A stretch of DNA of 64,000 bases, taken from assembly GCA_902631395.1 (NCBI GenBank), contig CACOYM010000002.1, forward strand, positions 141,131 to 205,130, given 5' to 3'. Of this stretch, positions 1-16,928 are shown one piece after another. Position 1 is the first letter of the stretch, and each line of letters opens with the position of its first letter. The notes under the pieces are model-generated. The model was not told where the DNA came from. It ran no database searches and saw only the letters and a program-made list of their open reading frames with translations. Source of the stretch: Halieaceae bacterium. GTDB taxonomy: Bacteria; Pseudomonadota; Gammaproteobacteria; Pseudomonadales; Halieaceae. Position numbers and translations under genes: made by a program.

Positions 1-435
1 CTTACGGCCCACGCAAAGGAAAATCCAGACCCTGGCCATCTGACCGCTTTGGTGCGACCCAAGCTAGGACGTCTGATCTGTCAGCCCTTGGTTGACGACA
101 CAGGGACGCTGACGGTGGTGACCTTGGCACCGGACCTCGAAAAACTCCTTGAGAGCAGCCGGGCAGGCGCTGAAACTGAGCACATCACACTTGATCCGAC
201 ATTGGCTAACTCAATGATCGAGAGCCTTCGGAGTGAAGCAGAGAAAATACAAGAGAATGGCGTTGCAGCCACTTTGGTAGTGTCGCCCACTCTCCGGAGT
301 TGGATGGCACGCTTTGTCAAAGTCCGAGTACCTGATCTGACAGTGCTGTCCTATACAGAGATCCCGGACGATCAGCGCATCCAAGTTCAATCCAGCATCG
401 GTGGCGAGGCAGCCATAGAGAGCGATACGGAGTAA
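1..435 (+). CDS. flhA: Flagellar export apparatus protein FlhA, C-terminal fragment (5' end outside window)
   Basis: Open frame from window start; TLTVVTLAPDLEKLL...AATLVVSPTLRSWMARFVKVRVPDLTVLSYTEIPDDQRIQV is typical of the FlhA C-terminus; followed by flhF/flhG/fliA. Confidence 0.93.
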   Translation, partial: LTAHAKENPDPGHLTALVRPKLGRLICQPLVDDTGTLTVVTLAPDLEKLLESSRAGAETEHITLDPTLANSMIESLRSEAEKIQENGVAATLVVSPTLRSWMARFVKVRVPDLTVLSYTEIPDDQRIQVQSSIGGEAAIESDTE

Positions 436-441
436 TACAGT

Positions 442-1209
442 ATGAGACTTGTCGTAGAGGAAGCTCAGGATCACAGCGCCTGCATGGAAAAGCTAAGAAG
501 CTTGTATGGGGCGGACTGTGTTGTTGTGCATAGCTTTCGGATAGACGATCGATACCGGGTGGTGATTGCATTGGAGACAGATATTCGAACGCCCGCCAGT
601 TGTCAGGGGAGCGCTGTAAAAAATGTTGTGTCTCACCCCTATATTCGCTGGGATACGCTAATCGATGGTGCGGAGTCGGTAAATACACCGTTGCCAACTA
701 GTGTTGTCTCAGCAGCACATATGGAGACTAAGGCGTTGCAGCACGGCCCAAATGAGATCAGTTCCAGGCTGATCGAACTCGCGGCCAGGATCAAGGCGCT
801 TGACGCGTTGGAACCACTGTCGGCTCTCGAGCCGGAGTCGCAAGACTTCAGACAGGCAGTGTTCTCGGAAGTCCTCGCCGAGGCCACAGCTGCCAGCGAC
901 AAACCGCATAATATCCAGCAACACGGCACCGACCAGGTAGCGCCCTCAATCCCAGAAATTTTTTCGACACTAACAGATGCGCCGGCTGCCAAATTTCCCG
1001 CACCGGTCGATGCGCTCCTCAAGACACGTGAATCCCTCATCGCCGACACTTTGAACACCAGCACCCCTCTCGAGGAGACTCCCATTCCCAGAGTCTGCAC
1101 GTCTGACAGCGCGGAAAACTTCGCCAATCTGCTCTTAAGTTGTGTTGCCGATTCCCAGAAAAGCTTGCCCCTTTATGAGCAGACTCGGCTTAGAATGGTA
1201 GCTAGCTAA
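442..1209 (+). CDS. FlhF-like protein with the N-terminal domain only; no SRP-type GTPase (NG) domain
   Basis: N-terminus MRLVVEEAQDHSACMEKLRSLYGADCVVVHSFRIDDRYRVVIAL resembles the FlhF N-domain and the gene sits between flhA and flhG; no P-loop or NG motifs in 255 aa. Confidence 0.6.
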   Translation: MRLVVEEAQDHSACMEKLRSLYGADCVVVHSFRIDDRYRVVIALETDIRTPASCQGSAVKNVVSHPYIRWDTLIDGAESVNTPLPTSVVSAAHMETKALQHGPNEISSRLIELAARIKALDALEPLSALEPESQDFRQAVFSEVLAEATAASDKPHNIQQHGTDQVAPSIPEIFSTLTDAPAAKFPAPVDALLKTRESLIADTLNTSTPLEETPIPRVCTSDSAENFANLLLSCVADSQKSLPLYEQTRLRMVAS

Positions 1210-1268: not shown

Positions 1269-2060
1269 ATGCGTGTAATTGGTGTGACAAGCGGAAAGGG
1301 TGGCGTCGGTAAAACCACAGTTTCGGTTAATCTTGCTGTTGAGCTTGCCAAGCGAGGCAAAAAAGTCGTTTTACTTGATGGTGACCTAGGGTTAAGTAAT
1401 GCCCAGATACTGCTCAACGCCCGAGTCGAATACAGCTATGGGCATGTGCTCTCTGGGCAAAAGACCCTTGAAGAGATCATGGTGCAGTCAGAGCACGGCG
1501 TCACGTTGGTTCCGGGTTCAAGCGGCTCTTCTGCTCTGGCACGCCTCACGCGCCTACAGTTATTAGGTCTCATACACACACTCTCGACGCTAGATGACTG
1601 TGACTATCTGGTTGTTGATACGGCGGCAGGCATTAGCGATAACGTGACGGTGCTATTCGGTGCCTGCGATATTAAATTGCTACTGATTCAAAATGAGCCG
1701 TCCTCGATTGCTGATGCGTACGCCACAGTTAAGGTCTTGCAGCAGGAATTCAATCTCTCCGACATCATGCTAACGCCGGTTCAAGTAACAAATGAGCGCG
1801 AATCGGAAAATATTCACAAACGTATCAACAAAGTTACCGCGCAATTCCTGGGGATCTCCCTTGGATACTCGACCGGAATCCGAAAAGACCCGGTCGTGCT
1901 CAACTCTGCTAGGCTAGGACAACCAGCGATTCTTCACGCCCCAGAGAGCGATATCGCAAAAGACATTCGACGTCTCGTCGACGTCATCACCGAATCGACG
2001 GGCGAGCCCACCACCGCCAGCGATATCAAAATATCGGTGGGCGCTGGCGCAAAGAACTGA
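1269..2060 (+). CDS. flhG: FlhG/FleN-type MinD-like ATPase
   Basis: Deviant Walker [44 protein letters not shown]; located between the flhF-like gene and fliA. Confidence 0.92.
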
Positions 2061-2063
2061 TCT

Positions 2064-2783
2064 ATGTCCAAAGGCTACCAAGCATATGCTGACGCACTGA
2101 CGAACTCTGAGCCCAGTGCTGAGAATTCTGCGGTGCTGCAGCATATCGGCCTCGTACATAAAACAGCTCTTCATATCAAGGCCCGACTGCCAGACTACGT
2201 TGAACTCGAAGAGTTGGTGCAAATCGGGATGGTCGGGTTGCTCGAGGCTGCAAAGTCCTACGATTCAACACAAGGTGCCGACCTGGGCACATTCGCCAGC
2301 AAGCGCATACGAGGCGCTATTTTGGATGAGGTGCGCAAGAGATCTCCCCTGTCGAGGACCGACAGTTCGCACATCAAGGCAGAAGAGCAGGTGGTGGAGC
2401 AATTTCTTGCAAAACATGGCAGACCACCGACGGCGAGCGAGATAGCACAAGAACTCGGCACGCCACTTGATGAGTACCAAAAGCAACGAGGCAGATCGCA
2501 GAAATTTCGCACGACGTCTCTGGAAGATCTGGAGGAAAGTGGTCAAATCCCCGTCTCCGAGAGCGATGGTCCTGAGGACGAATTAGACGCTATCGAAGCC
2601 AGCGAGTGGCTTGCTGCGGAAATCGCAGAATTACCTGAGCGTGAACAAATCGTGATTTCTTTATACTATAACGATGAAATGAATTTGAAAGAGATAGGAG
2701 CGATCATTGGCGTCAGCGAATCCCGAGTCAGCCAAATTCTCACCAAAGTGGTGGGGAAACTTCGCGACCGGGTCGCGTTTTAA
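2064..2783 (+). CDS. fliA: RNA polymerase sigma-28 factor FliA
   Basis: LVHKTALHIKARLPDYVELEELVQIGMVGLLEAAKSYD...GTFASKRIRGAILDEVRKRSPLSR; C-terminal region 4 LKEIGAIIGVSESRVSQI. Confidence 0.96.
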   Translation: MSKGYQAYADALTNSEPSAENSAVLQHIGLVHKTALHIKARLPDYVELEELVQIGMVGLLEAAKSYDSTQGADLGTFASKRIRGAILDEVRKRSPLSRTDSSHIKAEEQVVEQFLAKHGRPPTASEIAQELGTPLDEYQKQRGRSQKFRTTSLEDLEESGQIPVSESDGPEDELDAIEASEWLAAEIAELPEREQIVISLYYNDEMNLKEIGAIIGVSESRVSQILTKVVGKLRDRVAF

Positions 2784-2798
2784 GGCATAGAGCACGGC

Positions 2799-3284
2799 AT
2801 GTTTGGAAAAAAATCAAAACTAGAGCGCGTAAAAGCAGACGCAAAAGCAGACTACTTAAAGTGTAGTGCCTTGGACCCTGAGGATCGCCTTCACAGGGTT
2901 TTCGCAGCGCGAATCGCCCAACGAGCGAGACTGAATCTCGACAAGATTTTTGTGCAGGGCGCCAAAGCAGAAGAAAAACGCCAGCACGAGATGGCAGAGG
3001 CAATTAAAGCCGGTAGTGGCATTCCACCGAGAATCGTGCATGAGGGCTACAACCAGCTACAAGGGATATCAGGGTCCGTTGTGTCCTGGGTCCCGGAGGA
3101 ACTTGCCAACAAGATGTTTAACTTGGGTGCTGACTATCAAATTACTGAAGTCAGTGCCCATGAAGCGTTGCAGCAGGCTGAAAAGGTTGCTGAGACTATT
3201 ATTGAGGACCTGCAAACCACGCAATCTATACAATTACTCGGTTTGTTGCGCGAGGACGATGGAGACGATGAGTCCGAGGATTAG
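2799..3284 (+). CDS. Uncharacterised 161-aa protein downstream of fliA
   Basis: ORF starts 16 nt after the fliA stop on the same strand; acidic tail EDDGDDESED; no recognised family. Confidence 0.75.
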   Translation: MFGKKSKLERVKADAKADYLKCSALDPEDRLHRVFAARIAQRARLNLDKIFVQGAKAEEKRQHEMAEAIKAGSGIPPRIVHEGYNQLQGISGSVVSWVPEELANKMFNLGADYQITEVSAHEALQQAEKVAETIIEDLQTTQSIQLLGLLREDDGDDESED

Positions 3285-3323: not shown

Positions 3324-3959
3324 ATGTCACTAGAAAATATTGTCATCGCGGTATCGCTGCTCTTGGGCATTGTGTTACTCATCCTGATCATTTATCTGAT
3401 CAGTAGAGTTAACGACCTTGAGGCAAAGGCTTTTTCCTTTCAAAGCGCTACGTCGTCGGAAAAAAAAACCGAAACAGATTCGCAGAAGGTCTTTGGGGGG
3501 CTAAATGGACGCCAATTATGGGACGAATGGGTGGCGATGGCCAACGGCGGGGAAGATCGATTTGGCATCAGGGGGGACCGGGATCGCTTCCTCGCTCTAC
3601 TTGAGTTACACATTCGCTCACTTATTAAGACCGGCATCGAACACGGCTCCAACGGGATAAACGAGCCACCCTCTAACCCGTTGAAAATCAAAATGCTGCG
3701 CGGTGAGTTCGAAAGCTATCTTCCATCGTCTCAGGCTGGTCGCCTCTACGAAATCGGGTGTGATTTAGGCTTCAGCGACGATCCACAGCAGCAAGCAGCG
3801 CTGGTCGCGGCGCTCACCGAGACCGTTGACGCCATTTCAATGGGTATTGACGCAGGTTCAACTTTCGTTGAAAACGCGATGCGCGACGTCAGCACTGAGC
3901 CTCAAGACCGAGAGCTCGGGCAGGAACTCGTGCCGGCTGACCAATCCAGCGTTGATTGA
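3324..3959 (+). CDS. Uncharacterised membrane-anchored protein in the flagellar locus
   Basis: N-terminal TM segment IVIAVSLLLGIVLLILIIYLI followed by a soluble domain; collinear with fliA. Confidence 0.75.
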   Translation: MSLENIVIAVSLLLGIVLLILIIYLISRVNDLEAKAFSFQSATSSEKKTETDSQKVFGGLNGRQLWDEWVAMANGGEDRFGIRGDRDRFLALLELHIRSLIKTGIEHGSNGINEPPSNPLKIKMLRGEFESYLPSSQAGRLYEIGCDLGFSDDPQQQAALVAALTETVDAISMGIDAGSTFVENAMRDVSTEPQDRELGQELVPADQSSVD

Positions 3960-3960
3960 A

Positions 3961-4779
3961 TTATTGTTGCTGGTCTGGAGCAGGAAACACGACACTTCCC
4001 TCGGGATAAATCTTTTCAGGCACCAAGACATCGTCCTCCGTAGGGCCATTGCTGAGCTGAGCTCGCTCAAGGGCCAATTGCGCAGCAAAGAGCTCTGCCA
4101 GATTTTCGCGCTCAATCTCAATAAGAGTTGAAATCTCCCGCTTGAGGGCTTCAACATCGTTAAGGCCAGACTCTAACTTTGTGACTTTCCGCGACAACTC
4201 GGCGAACTGCTCCGACTGCTTTTGCAACTGCGCGACCATCGCTCTGTTAGACTCGACACCACTCCGGGTAATTTCGCTGGTGTCTGTGACAATGGATTGA
4301 ACACCAGTAATCGACATAGCCATCTGCTCGGCCAGCGTCTTGCCATCCCGCTCTACTTGGCCAATGGCCTCCGCGAGCTGAGCCTGACCTTCATCGAGCA
4401 TGCTCAGCTTTTGATCTAGCACAACCATGCGGTCAAGCGCAGAATTCATGTTCACGACGCGCTTTGTGATCGACAGAGTCGCAGCCTGCAATGCGTCCAC
4501 CTGCCCAGACAACCTGCCGCCCGCTACCATGAGCAGGACTGCACACAAAAAAACTACGACGGCGGCGCCACCGGCCAAACGCTTGGCATAGAATTCCATC
4601 TTGCGATTGGCCTGGCTTGCCGAGTCCAATGCCCGGTCAAGTCGGCTATGAGTATCAGCGTTCAACTGCGCGACGGCGTCAACAGCAGGACTTGACGGCA
4701 CTGAGCCACCATTATTGGTGCTCTTTTGGGCCGGCAAAGCCAAGTCGCCCTCTAAGCCTGGATTTTCGTCATCAACCAT
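3961..4779 (-). CDS. Uncharacterised membrane-anchored coiled-coil protein
   Basis: Single TM (AAVVVFLCAVLLMVAGGRLSG) followed by a long heptad-like region; downstream of flhB in the same direction. Confidence 0.75.
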   Translation of the reverse strand: MVDDENPGLEGDLALPAQKSTNNGGSVPSSPAVDAVAQLNADTHSRLDRALDSASQANRKMEFYAKRLAGGAAVVVFLCAVLLMVAGGRLSGQVDALQAATLSITKRVVNMNSALDRMVVLDQKLSMLDEGQAQLAEAIGQVERDGKTLAEQMAMSITGVQSIVTDTSEITRSGVESNRAMVAQLQKQSEQFAELSRKVTKLESGLNDVEALKREISTLIEIERENLAELFAAQLALERAQLSNGPTEDDVLVPEKIYPEGSVVFPAPDQQQ

Positions 4780-4828: not shown

Positions 4829-5806
4829 TTAGTGCGGGAGACGCTGAAACAGCGGCTCAAGGCTGTCCATAATCTCTTCTATCCAAGGCTTTACCAGCGA
4901 CTGTGTTAGTTCCCAAACCGGTGGGTGCAGGGCACCCGCAACCGCCAAAATCACTGCACTGGCAGACAAAATAATGATGCCCACCGCAATCAGAGACCCA
5001 ATTCTTGGGAGCAGGGCTCTCCAATTAATCCATCGCGATGGCGCTTTTTGGTCAGTCGCCTCAGCAAAAGCCCCACCTAATTGTTCAGCGGCCTGACCAC
5101 CCGCATAGTCAGTGTGTGGAGAGATAGACTTAGATTCATCGTAATCAGAAACACTTTGTTTAAGCGCGTCGCTAACGTCCAGGCCCAGTATCTCCATGGC
5201 AAGTCCGTACCAGGGCGACTGCTGAAGAGACGGTAGCAAATCGGCCAGCGCTCCTCTCTGATGACACTCTGAAAAGTACCGCTTTATGGCAGGATGATCC
5301 ATCTCAGTGAGGCGTATCAGATTATTACGCGACTTAAGCGAGAGTTGCTGTAAGGCTGCCGCATCGTGATTGCTCTCCGTTGAAAATGCTAGCATCCCTA
5401 CATTGGCACCCGGGAACGTGTTGACCAAAGACTCGCACGCCAACCACTCCTTGCCAGCGTTAGGACCAAAATCGGGCATCACAATGATATGGCGCTCTTG
5501 AGCCTGCTGGTTGCGTGCTTCTTCAATTGAGAGATCAGCCAATACAGTGTTGAATAGCTCGACGATGTCATCCACTTTTGGAGACATCATGCGATGCAAA
5601 TGAAGCCCAGGCTGCAGCTTTAGTTGTTGGTATAAAGCGAGAAAACAGGCATCAACATGGAACTCTTCCTCACCCACTATGAACACATTCGACATGCCCT
5701 CCAGCAATGCTTCGCGCGCTGCCTCAAGAATTCTCTCATCGTCTGGGTGAGGGAGTGACCGGAGCAGCACGTCATCTGTGAGTTCAATTTTCATCGGCCG
5801 ATACAC
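4829..5806 (-). CDS. Degenerate AAA/ExeA-like protein with a C-terminal transmembrane segment
   Basis: EGMSNVFIVGEEEFHVDACFLALYQQL has the layout of a Walker A strand-helix but lacks GK[ST]; RHIIVMPDFG resembles a Walker B strand; TM near C-terminus (IGSLIAVGIIILSASAVILAVAG). Confidence 0.55.
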   Translation of the reverse strand: MYRPMKIELTDDVLLRSLPHPDDERILEAAREALLEGMSNVFIVGEEEFHVDACFLALYQQLKLQPGLHLHRMMSPKVDDIVELFNTVLADLSIEEARNQQAQERHIIVMPDFGPNAGKEWLACESLVNTFPGANVGMLAFSTESNHDAAALQQLSLKSRNNLIRLTEMDHPAIKRYFSECHQRGALADLLPSLQQSPWYGLAMEILGLDVSDALKQSVSDYDESKSISPHTDYAGGQAAEQLGGAFAEATDQKAPSRWINWRALLPRIGSLIAVGIIILSASAVILAVAGALHPPVWELTQSLVKPWIEEIMDSLEPLFQRLPH

Positions 5807-15098: not shown

Positions 15099-15877
15099 GA
15101 CTCTGATAATTGGTCCGGAAATTGCGCAACAAGCTGTTCTCTTAACTGTGCGAATTCGCGTTCCAACAAGCGATCTATGGCTACCTGTTCGTATTGAATG
15201 GTGATGTCTCCGTCAGATAAATCGGGACTGATCACCATCGAAACTGGCTGATCCGCCAACAATGCCTCAAGCTCATCGAGAGACGCCAACTCTGCCATGG
15301 CTGGCGATACCCTAATCTCCACAGGTACATCTTCCGGAAGCTCCACCTCACGAAGCGCCTTGTTGATATATTGACGAAAAACATTCTCATTGAGCCGCAG
15401 CGACTGAAGGCAAACAGTTTTCGCAATATCCAGAGACAGGTCAGTGACAACTGGCCAAACGCGAGGCAAGGCCGCCATTTCGCTCCGGATAGACTCAAGA
15501 AATTTCTCGGCCAAAGCCTCCCGCTGCTGACTATCGAGGTTCGATTGGCGGATGCCTTCAGCAACCCCCTCTTGGTATCTTGAATCCAAAAGCTGATCAA
15601 CATCGATGACCTCTTCAACTTCGGCGTCATCCTCACGCGCCTCTGCCTCAAGCTCAATCTCCCTATTCGCAGACTCCTCAGCTTCTGTGAGAACTTCTTC
15701 TGGGTCAGGGTTGCTATGAGCCGCCTGCCAATGCATCTCCTCAAAGCCCCCGGAGCGCTTTACATACTCACCGCCAACCGAGGCTTCGCTAAAAGCTTTC
15801 GCACGACGATCAGCAGCCAGGAGTTCATTTAACTCCCACACCACCGTTTTATCGGCCTCAGACAAAATCATCTCCAC
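15095..15877 (-). CDS. fliH: Flagellar assembly protein FliH
   Basis: Acidic N-terminal half and FliH-like C-terminus; between fliG and fliI. Confidence 0.88.
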   Translation of the reverse strand: MEMILSEADKTVVWELNELLAADRRAKAFSEASVGGEYVKRSGGFEEMHWQAAHSNPDPEEVLTEAEESANREIELEAEAREDDAEVEEVIDVDQLLDSRYQEGVAEGIRQSNLDSQQREALAEKFLESIRSEMAALPRVWPVVTDLSLDIAKTVCLQSLRLNENVFRQYINKALREVELPEDVPVEIRVSPAMAELASLDELEALLADQPVSMVISPDLSDGDITIQYEQVAIDRLLEREFAQLREQLVAQFPDQLSES

Positions 15878-16928
15878 GGCCGGCTAGCACCAGTTCACCT
15901 GCATCAGACAGTTTTCGTGCAATACGCATGATGTTCTTCTGAGCATCCTCGACGTCCGATATGCGCATCGGACCCTTCGACTCCATATCATCGATGAACA
16001 TCGCTTTTGCACGCTGCGACATGTTGTCAAAGAACTTGTCACGCGTTTCCTCACTGGCTCCCTTCAGAGCCACCATCAGCAGATCCGATTCGATATTTCT
16101 CATCATCACCTGAATTGCACGGTTATCAACCATGGAGAGGTTCTCAAAGGTAAACATGTTGTCTTGTATCTGGAGCGTCAGGTCCTCGTCCAGTGAAGTG
16201 AGTGACTGCATTACGGAAGTTTCGAGATCAACCTTCACAAAGTTCATAATCTTTGCTGCAGTTTTCACGCCACCAAAACTCGATGATTGGGCTGAAGAGT
16301 TACTTGAAAATTGCTCCGACATAATTCGCTCAAGCTCTTCCATCGCCGATGGCTGGACCGTTTCAAGCTTTGCAACCCGCTGCATTACTTCGGCGCGATT
16401 ATCAGGAGGCAAAAAGCTCAGCACATCTGCAGCCACATCATACTCAAGGACCGAAAGGATGATCGCAATCACCTGAGGGTGCTCATTGATAATCATGTCC
16501 GAGATTGCGCGTGCATCCATCCAGCGAAGAATCTCTAGGCCCTTGGTGGACCCACCTGGAAGTATGCGGCTGAGTACCGTACTGGCCTTATCGTCACCGA
16601 GAGCTCGCTTCAACACAGATTCAACGTAATCGGTAGTGCCCAGACCAAGATTGGTTTGCTGCTTGATCGTCCCCACAAAGTCGTCTAATACAGCGCTCAC
16701 GGTTTCCTGAGACAAATCCACCACACCCACCATGGCTGACCCCAGCGCCTGCACCTCACGGGGGTTCATATACCGGATAATATCCGAGGCCTGCGTCTCA
16801 CCCATAAGAAGCATGATGACCGCGGCGCGCTCGGTGGTCGTCATCGTCTCCAGCTCTTCACGCACGAAGTCAGGAAGATCTTGATCGCCGTCACTCGAAG
16901 TTATATTTTTTGCTGCCTCCGCCATCAC
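15858..16928 (-). CDS. fliG: Flagellar motor switch protein FliG
   Basis: TTERAAVIMLLMGETQASDIIRYMNPREVQALGSAM; IINEHPQVIAIILS; MFTFENLSMVDNRAIQVMMRNI. Confidence 0.97.
   Translation of the reverse strand: MMAEAAKNITSSDGDQDLPDFVREELETMTTTERAAVIMLLMGETQASDIIRYMNPREVQALGSAMVGVVDLSQETVSAVLDDFVGTIKQQTNLGLGTTDYVESVLKRALGDDKASTVLSRILPGGSTKGLEILRWMDARAISDMIINEHPQVIAIILSVLEYDVAADVLSFLPPDNRAEVMQRVAKLETVQPSAMEELERIMSEQFSSNSSAQSSSFGGVKTAAKIMNFVKVDLETSVMQSLTSLDEDLTLQIQDNMFTFENLSMVDNRAIQVMMRNIESDLLMVALKGASEETRDKFFDNMSQRAKAMFIDDMESKGPMRISDVEDAQKNIMRIARKLSDAGELVLAGRGDDFV

Follow-up and report, generated by a model that had tools for sequence, protein, structure and literature searches.

Can a gene that stands in the place of flhF and begins like flhF, with no GTPase domain, still be an FlhF, the protein that normally determines the site of flagellar assembly, and what would such a protein do for the flagellum? 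The window, a stretch of 64 kb, comes from a draft genome (G000; 2.30 Mb, 60 contigs, 88.8% complete) taken as Luminiphilus, as two of the eight loci retrieved from close relatives are titled Luminiphilus sp. It opens with the 3' end of flhA (1..435, plus strand; TIGR01398 model positions 548-677), followed on the same strand by a short flhF (442..1209), flhG (1269..2060; MinD-type NCBIfam matches) and fliA, encoding sigma-28 (2064..2783; NF005413 and TIGR02479 above cut-off). The short flhF starts with ATG, ends with TAA and encodes 255 residues; it lies 6 nt behind the flhA stop at 435 and 59 nt ahead of the flhG start at 1269, in agreement with the initial annotation, which had described an FlhF-type N-terminus on a 255-residue frame about 60 nt from flhG. 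It is the sole FlhF candidate of the genome.

An FlhF N-terminus without the NG domain

The N-terminus matches the FlhF model TIGR03499 at model positions 1-56 only (E 0.0019), and the whole protein scores 18.3 bits, far below the curated cut-off of 174.15. A much stronger match (2.9e-19) to the profile A2 is given by construction, A2 containing the window sequence itself. A profile of the short forms matched no solved structure among the PDB sequences, so that the link to FlhF is drawn independently only from the fold comparison, TIGR03499 and the place of the gene; the link goes beyond coincidence, since the relatives have the same protein in the same slot between flhA and flhG-fliA.

The fold was predicted with AlphaFold2 from eight natural sequences. 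Mean pLDDT was 54.5, a low value that is expected since the protein is mostly disordered, and residues 1-40 reached about 84-89. The predicted N-terminus (strands 2-8, 26-34 and 37-44, helix 11-21) forms a beta-alpha-beta-beta FliG-interacting domain (FID; about residues 1-46, 442..579, plus strand). When residues 1-45 were compared with the PDB by Foldseek, the eight best matches were all chains of 9en1 (best E 4.5e-3, TM by target up to 0.82), the crystallised FID of Shewanella putrefaciens FlhF (PMC11236974). Fold is common to both, and identity over the aligned columns is only about 17-20%. Three further predicted helices (108-123, 134-152 and 222-241) coincide with motifs conserved among the short forms: two in the linker, at residues 106-123 (EISSRLIELAARIKALDA) and 134-152 (DFRQAVFSEVLAEA) (757..897, plus strand), and one at the C-terminus, residues 216-255 (PRVCTSDSAENFANLLLSC...; 1087..1206, plus strand), whose main helix 222-241 is moderately amphipathic (shuffle p 0.016, uncorrected, four helices tested). 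Descent of the linker F..VL motif from long FlhF was considered and found too weak (2 of 46 linkers vs 0.6 expected).

The NG domain, which S. putrefaciens FlhF joins to its FID and by which it binds HubP, is missing as a whole. The Pfam scan of the short FlhF returned no domain, and the protein contains none of the motifs by which the NG domain of FlhF is recognised, i.e. the G1 P-loop, G3 DTAG and G4 TKxD. An NG profile built from the FlhF of P-loop-bearing relatives gave no significant match when run on the entire window in six frames (best E 0.62). With the same profile, G052 FlhF, itself a member of the profile, scores 230 bits, and the P-loop-less G006 FlhF, not a member, scores 184 bits; thus the short frame is not a frameshifted full-length FlhF, and a frameshifted or displaced G domain nearby is ruled out. 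The absence of a P-loop, G4 or other NG motif noted at the outset therefore stands.

It might still be argued that the short form is an artefact, produced by an assembly deletion or a frameshift or by an NG domain encoded elsewhere, the window genome being an incomplete draft in many contigs. That genome contains two SRP54-type GTPases only, of 367 and 463 residues, which by their length are FtsY- and Ffh-sized. The same short form is present in G059, a genome of a sister genus in one contig (98% complete), with exactly two SRP GTPases (382 and 462 residues), and G024 (96% complete) also has two. Other short-FlhF genomes have one or two strong FtsY/Ffh-sized matches plus at most one weak sub-threshold match; the draft G133 (4% contamination) has two FtsY-sized ones (378 and 354 residues). 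Since 14 species-level genomes carry the short form, assembly error and recent deletion are both ruled out, and the artefact reading, already refuted at the clade level, retains a practically negligible probability. The two findings on which the initial annotation had made its reading depend, a separate full-length FlhF or NG domain elsewhere and an assembly or sequencing deletion, were thus both looked for: the former was not found in the window genome or in G059, and the latter is excluded by the 14 genomes. As neither refuting finding was obtained, "GTPase-independent FlhF" is the right reading of the gene; a part in flagellar placement, ordinary or altered, is inferred.

Distribution, selection and repeated loss of the NG domain

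The search for close relatives among named genomes returned eight loci, all from Halieaceae (G003, G024, G028, G034, G118, G120, G122 and G128); two of these genomes, AG-894-J17 and AH-287-B15, bear what we read as single-cell-style names, and the record titles say MAG. Across 141 genomes of the family, FlhF was detected in 64 by a profile of its N-terminus. The comparison of the locus in related genomes, which had been proposed as a check, yielded short forms of 171-290 residues at the same place in 14 species-level Halieaceae genomes of two genera: twelve of Luminiphilus (G000, the eight above, G019, G132 and G133) and two of genus g24 (G059, 256 residues; G063, 171 residues). In wider draws covering the class (370 genomes) and the order (247 genomes), the short-looking proteins outside the family, among the matches listed, were frameshifts with the NG domain in another frame (G366, G465) or frames running into contig ends (G351, G431, G686); rarer cases of short FlhF outside the family may exist. 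G047, from another family of the order, was also rejected as a short form. Its 312-residue FlhF (L102:266-1204), with an almost unrecognisable G domain, is real and differently degenerate, and is a further, separate erosion of FlhF.

The short flhF is under purifying selection. In close pairs whole-gene omega is 0.17-0.36; the FID is held at 0.02-0.23 in the pairs with unsaturated dS, and the last 45 residues (211-255) range from 0.03 (G000-G120) up to 0.57 (G118-G122). The stretches of linker between the conserved motifs are loose, with omega up to 0.93, and flhG and fliA are tighter in the same pairs (0 to 0.11). The fast evolution of long linker stretches and the variation in length are what a decaying remnant would show, i.e. 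a gene left functionless by the loss of the NG domain and drifting since. However, the frame is intact in all 14 genomes of the two genera, and the FID and the motifs are conserved, which makes such decay very improbable. The omega pattern is that of a disordered adaptor selected at a few contact points and not that of a pseudogene.

The short forms share with G052, a genome of a different family with a 432-residue FlhF and an intact P-loop, a type II flagellar cluster in which flhA-flhF-flhG-fliA is followed by two small genes of unknown function. Trees of FlhG plus FliA place the short forms and G052 in one clade (100/100), within which twelve short forms (G059, G019, G132 and nine further Luminiphilus) are monophyletic (100/100). 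The short form of G063 groups instead with the 412-residue form of G061 (100/98), and a tree constrained to unite all short forms is rejected (p-AU 0.008). The NG domain must therefore have been lost independently at least twice, a conclusion qualified by the draft state of the G063 genome (89% complete, 5% contamination).

In the other flagellar type of Luminiphilus, the FlhF of nine genomes (G001, G006, G017, G018, G027, G030, G035, G121 and G124) has an NG-like fold without a P-loop, with e.g. GGSGADRA or GANGTDRA for GxxGxGKT and ETPD for DTAG. Seven others (G007, G016, G031, G033, G123, G126 and G131) keep GKT and have DTPAL or DTQAL at the DTAG position, and only G012, G022 and G032 have complete-looking GTPase motifs. 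Thus, the genus is dismantling the FlhF GTPase along more than one route. The 365-368-residue proteins of G006, G017, G027, G030, G035 and G124 (L070, L074, L079, L081, L086, L162 and others), which have altered G3 and G4 in addition to the missing P-loop, are by their motifs presumably natural pseudo-GTPases that have lost the GTPase function. In this they would resemble the short form of the same genus; they differ from it in retaining the NG fold and in belonging to a different cluster type.

FlhG, FliG and the flagellar gene set

The window FlhG has its Walker ATPase motif intact at the N-terminus, and in its sequence the N-terminal DQAxxLR helix and the C-terminal FF.E motif are absent. 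Loss of DQAxxLR was discarded as a correlate of FlhF shortening because it is not specific, most of the long-FlhF genomes analysed here also being without it. Eleven of 13 genomes with a short FlhF lack the conserved FF.E motif, and 38 of the 40 whose FlhF has a P-loop retain it; it is also missing from the FlhG of G012, G022 and G047 and retained in the short-FlhF genomes G059 and G063. FlhG dimers bind the membrane via a C-terminal targeting sequence (PMC12826062), and from its position FF.E is presumably that sequence. Since G059 and G063 keep the motif, its losses in Luminiphilus are probably one event, so that the joint change of FlhG and FlhF is a hint and not a statistical test.

The flagellar set of the window is otherwise ordinary, with FliE, FliF, FliG, FliI, FliM, FliN, FliP, FliR and FlhB matched and a sigma-54 regulator beside these genes. 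By analogy with Shewanella (PMC11236974) and Pseudomonas (PMC12713375), the product of fliG (15858..16928, minus strand; TIGR00207 above cut-off) is the expected partner of the FID. Four genes of unknown function lie between fliA and flhB (2799-3284 and 3324-3959, plus strand; 3961-4779 and 4829-5806, minus strand); in Pfam three have no convincing match and one has weak coiled-coil matches only. Their position is conserved in the relatives with a short FlhF and, at least in part, in the long-FlhF genome G052, which assigns them to the type II cluster.

MotB-type stator genes are present in the window genome. Outside the window, on contig C2 (90884-92325), two adjacent frames of 430 and 505 residues carry a MotB plug domain; such pairs, also found in G003, G024, G128 and G059, are possibly two stator sets. 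Regarding polar landmarks, FipA (DUF2802, PF10975), which recruits FlhF to the pole, had no match in the window genome, in any Luminiphilus tested or in G052, and is missing in related long-FlhF genomes too. G047, whose FlhG lacks FF.E, does have a DUF2802 (FipA-type) gene, about 8 kb from its flhF. A 188-residue frame upstream of flhA in the window genome (contig C2, 137114-137281, minus strand; locus L186) gives a weak match to the FimV core (LysM), and the short-FlhF genomes searched, like G052, have a LysM frame about as far from flhA. This small FimV-like gene was dropped as a candidate replacement landmark, as it also stands beside flhA in the long-FlhF G052.

Proposed flagellar assembly and possible placement with no GTP cycle

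S. putrefaciens FlhF requires its first 60 residues to bind FliG, and these also suffice for the binding; HubP is bound by the NG domain, and FliG bound to FlhF can meet FliF and not FliM/FliN (PMC11236974). In P. aeruginosa lacking flhF, an FlhF without the G domain restores flagella; the protein is diffuse, about 65% of cells have a mislocalised non-polar flagellum, and swimming is not restored (PMC12713375). Based on these precedents, the reading we consider probable is that the window gene is a true flhF ortholog that lost NG, kept the FID and a mostly disordered linker, and nucleates the basal body with no GTP cycle. Its FID would still capture FliG and help it meet FliF, and thereby still seed the MS/C-ring; the natural short form is expected, on the model of these precedents, to go on initiating basal bodies. 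Without an NG domain it cannot use the tether to HubP or GTP hydrolysis to release FliG. FliG would then have to pass to FliM/FliN passively or with the help of a different partner, FlhG, whose ATPase motif is intact, would have to control flagellar number, and the NG contact with HubP/FimV would be given up. Because P. aeruginosa FlhF without the G domain misplaces flagella, placement in Luminiphilus would be either relaxed or secured by another contact, perhaps through the conserved linker and C-terminal helices. The analogy also has a cost: as the truncated P. aeruginosa protein restores no swimming, it predicts poor motility unless something compensates.

At only about 17-20% identity to 9en1, the FID could have lost FliG binding. 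Its identity to most FIDs from other clades is also low (10-28%), and it has invariant residues of its own (C14, C26 and H30). This divergence would suit a protein repurposed for another flagellar partner, for instance as an expression regulator linked to FlhG or FleQ; since the FID fold and the operon place are retained and fliG is in the same cluster, we regard repurposing as unlikely. A stronger form of the ortholog reading assumes that the linker and C-terminal helices took over from NG the binding of a landmark (FimV or another) and that polarity is kept without GTP. Such a tether would fit the three conserved helical motifs, which lie outside the FID and are under selection (omega 0.03 in one of them), and the FimV core is present in all six short-FlhF genomes searched. 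Against this, the motifs have no known partner, and the C-terminal one is weaker in both G019 and G059, while the 171-residue form of G063 lacks it, so re-tethering is best treated as a tentative option that we would not bet on. An equally tentative proposal is a GTP-free FlhF-FlhG system in which FlhF is a FID-linker adaptor with a non-NG tether fixing position and the FlhG of Luminiphilus lost its presumed membrane anchor; if true, a natural lineage would place its flagella with no need of GTP cycling by FlhF.

Of the systems compared, the engineered FlhF-BN of P. aeruginosa (residues 1-211; PMC12713375) is like the short form in having the B domain without the G domain. FlhF-BN is artificial, retains the N domain and gives non-polar flagella and poor swimming; the short form, in contrast, is natural and conserved and is also without a recognisable N domain. 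TipN/TipF of Caulobacter likewise place a polar flagellum without an FlhF GTPase, TipF reaching FliG directly (PMC11236974), but they have no homology to FlhF, whereas the lineage described here keeps an FlhF-derived FID and FlhG. The FID, the NG domain and engineered truncations are thus known; in the open-access literature searched, we found no description of a naturally occurring FlhF that is without NG, nor of an FlhF termed a pseudo-GTPase. The cultured Luminiphilus syltensis is described as non-motile (PMC3679898) and is therefore no test organism.

The role of the FlhF GTPase is still argued. According to the title of a 2013 study by Schniederberend, as listed in PMC12826062, its activity is reportedly dispensable for flagellar localisation, but not for motility, in P. 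aeruginosa. Truncations, on the other hand, tie the G domain to polarity (PMC12713375). As NG was lost at least twice and near relatives have the fold intact or dead, the role of the GTPase becomes testable by comparison. The lineage sets the capture of FliG by the FID apart from the GTP clock and from tethering to HubP, which suggests that FliG capture is the part of FlhF that selection cannot do without. Luminiphilus and its neighbouring genus, a group of marine bacteria, offer a natural view of what FlhF can do without GTP.
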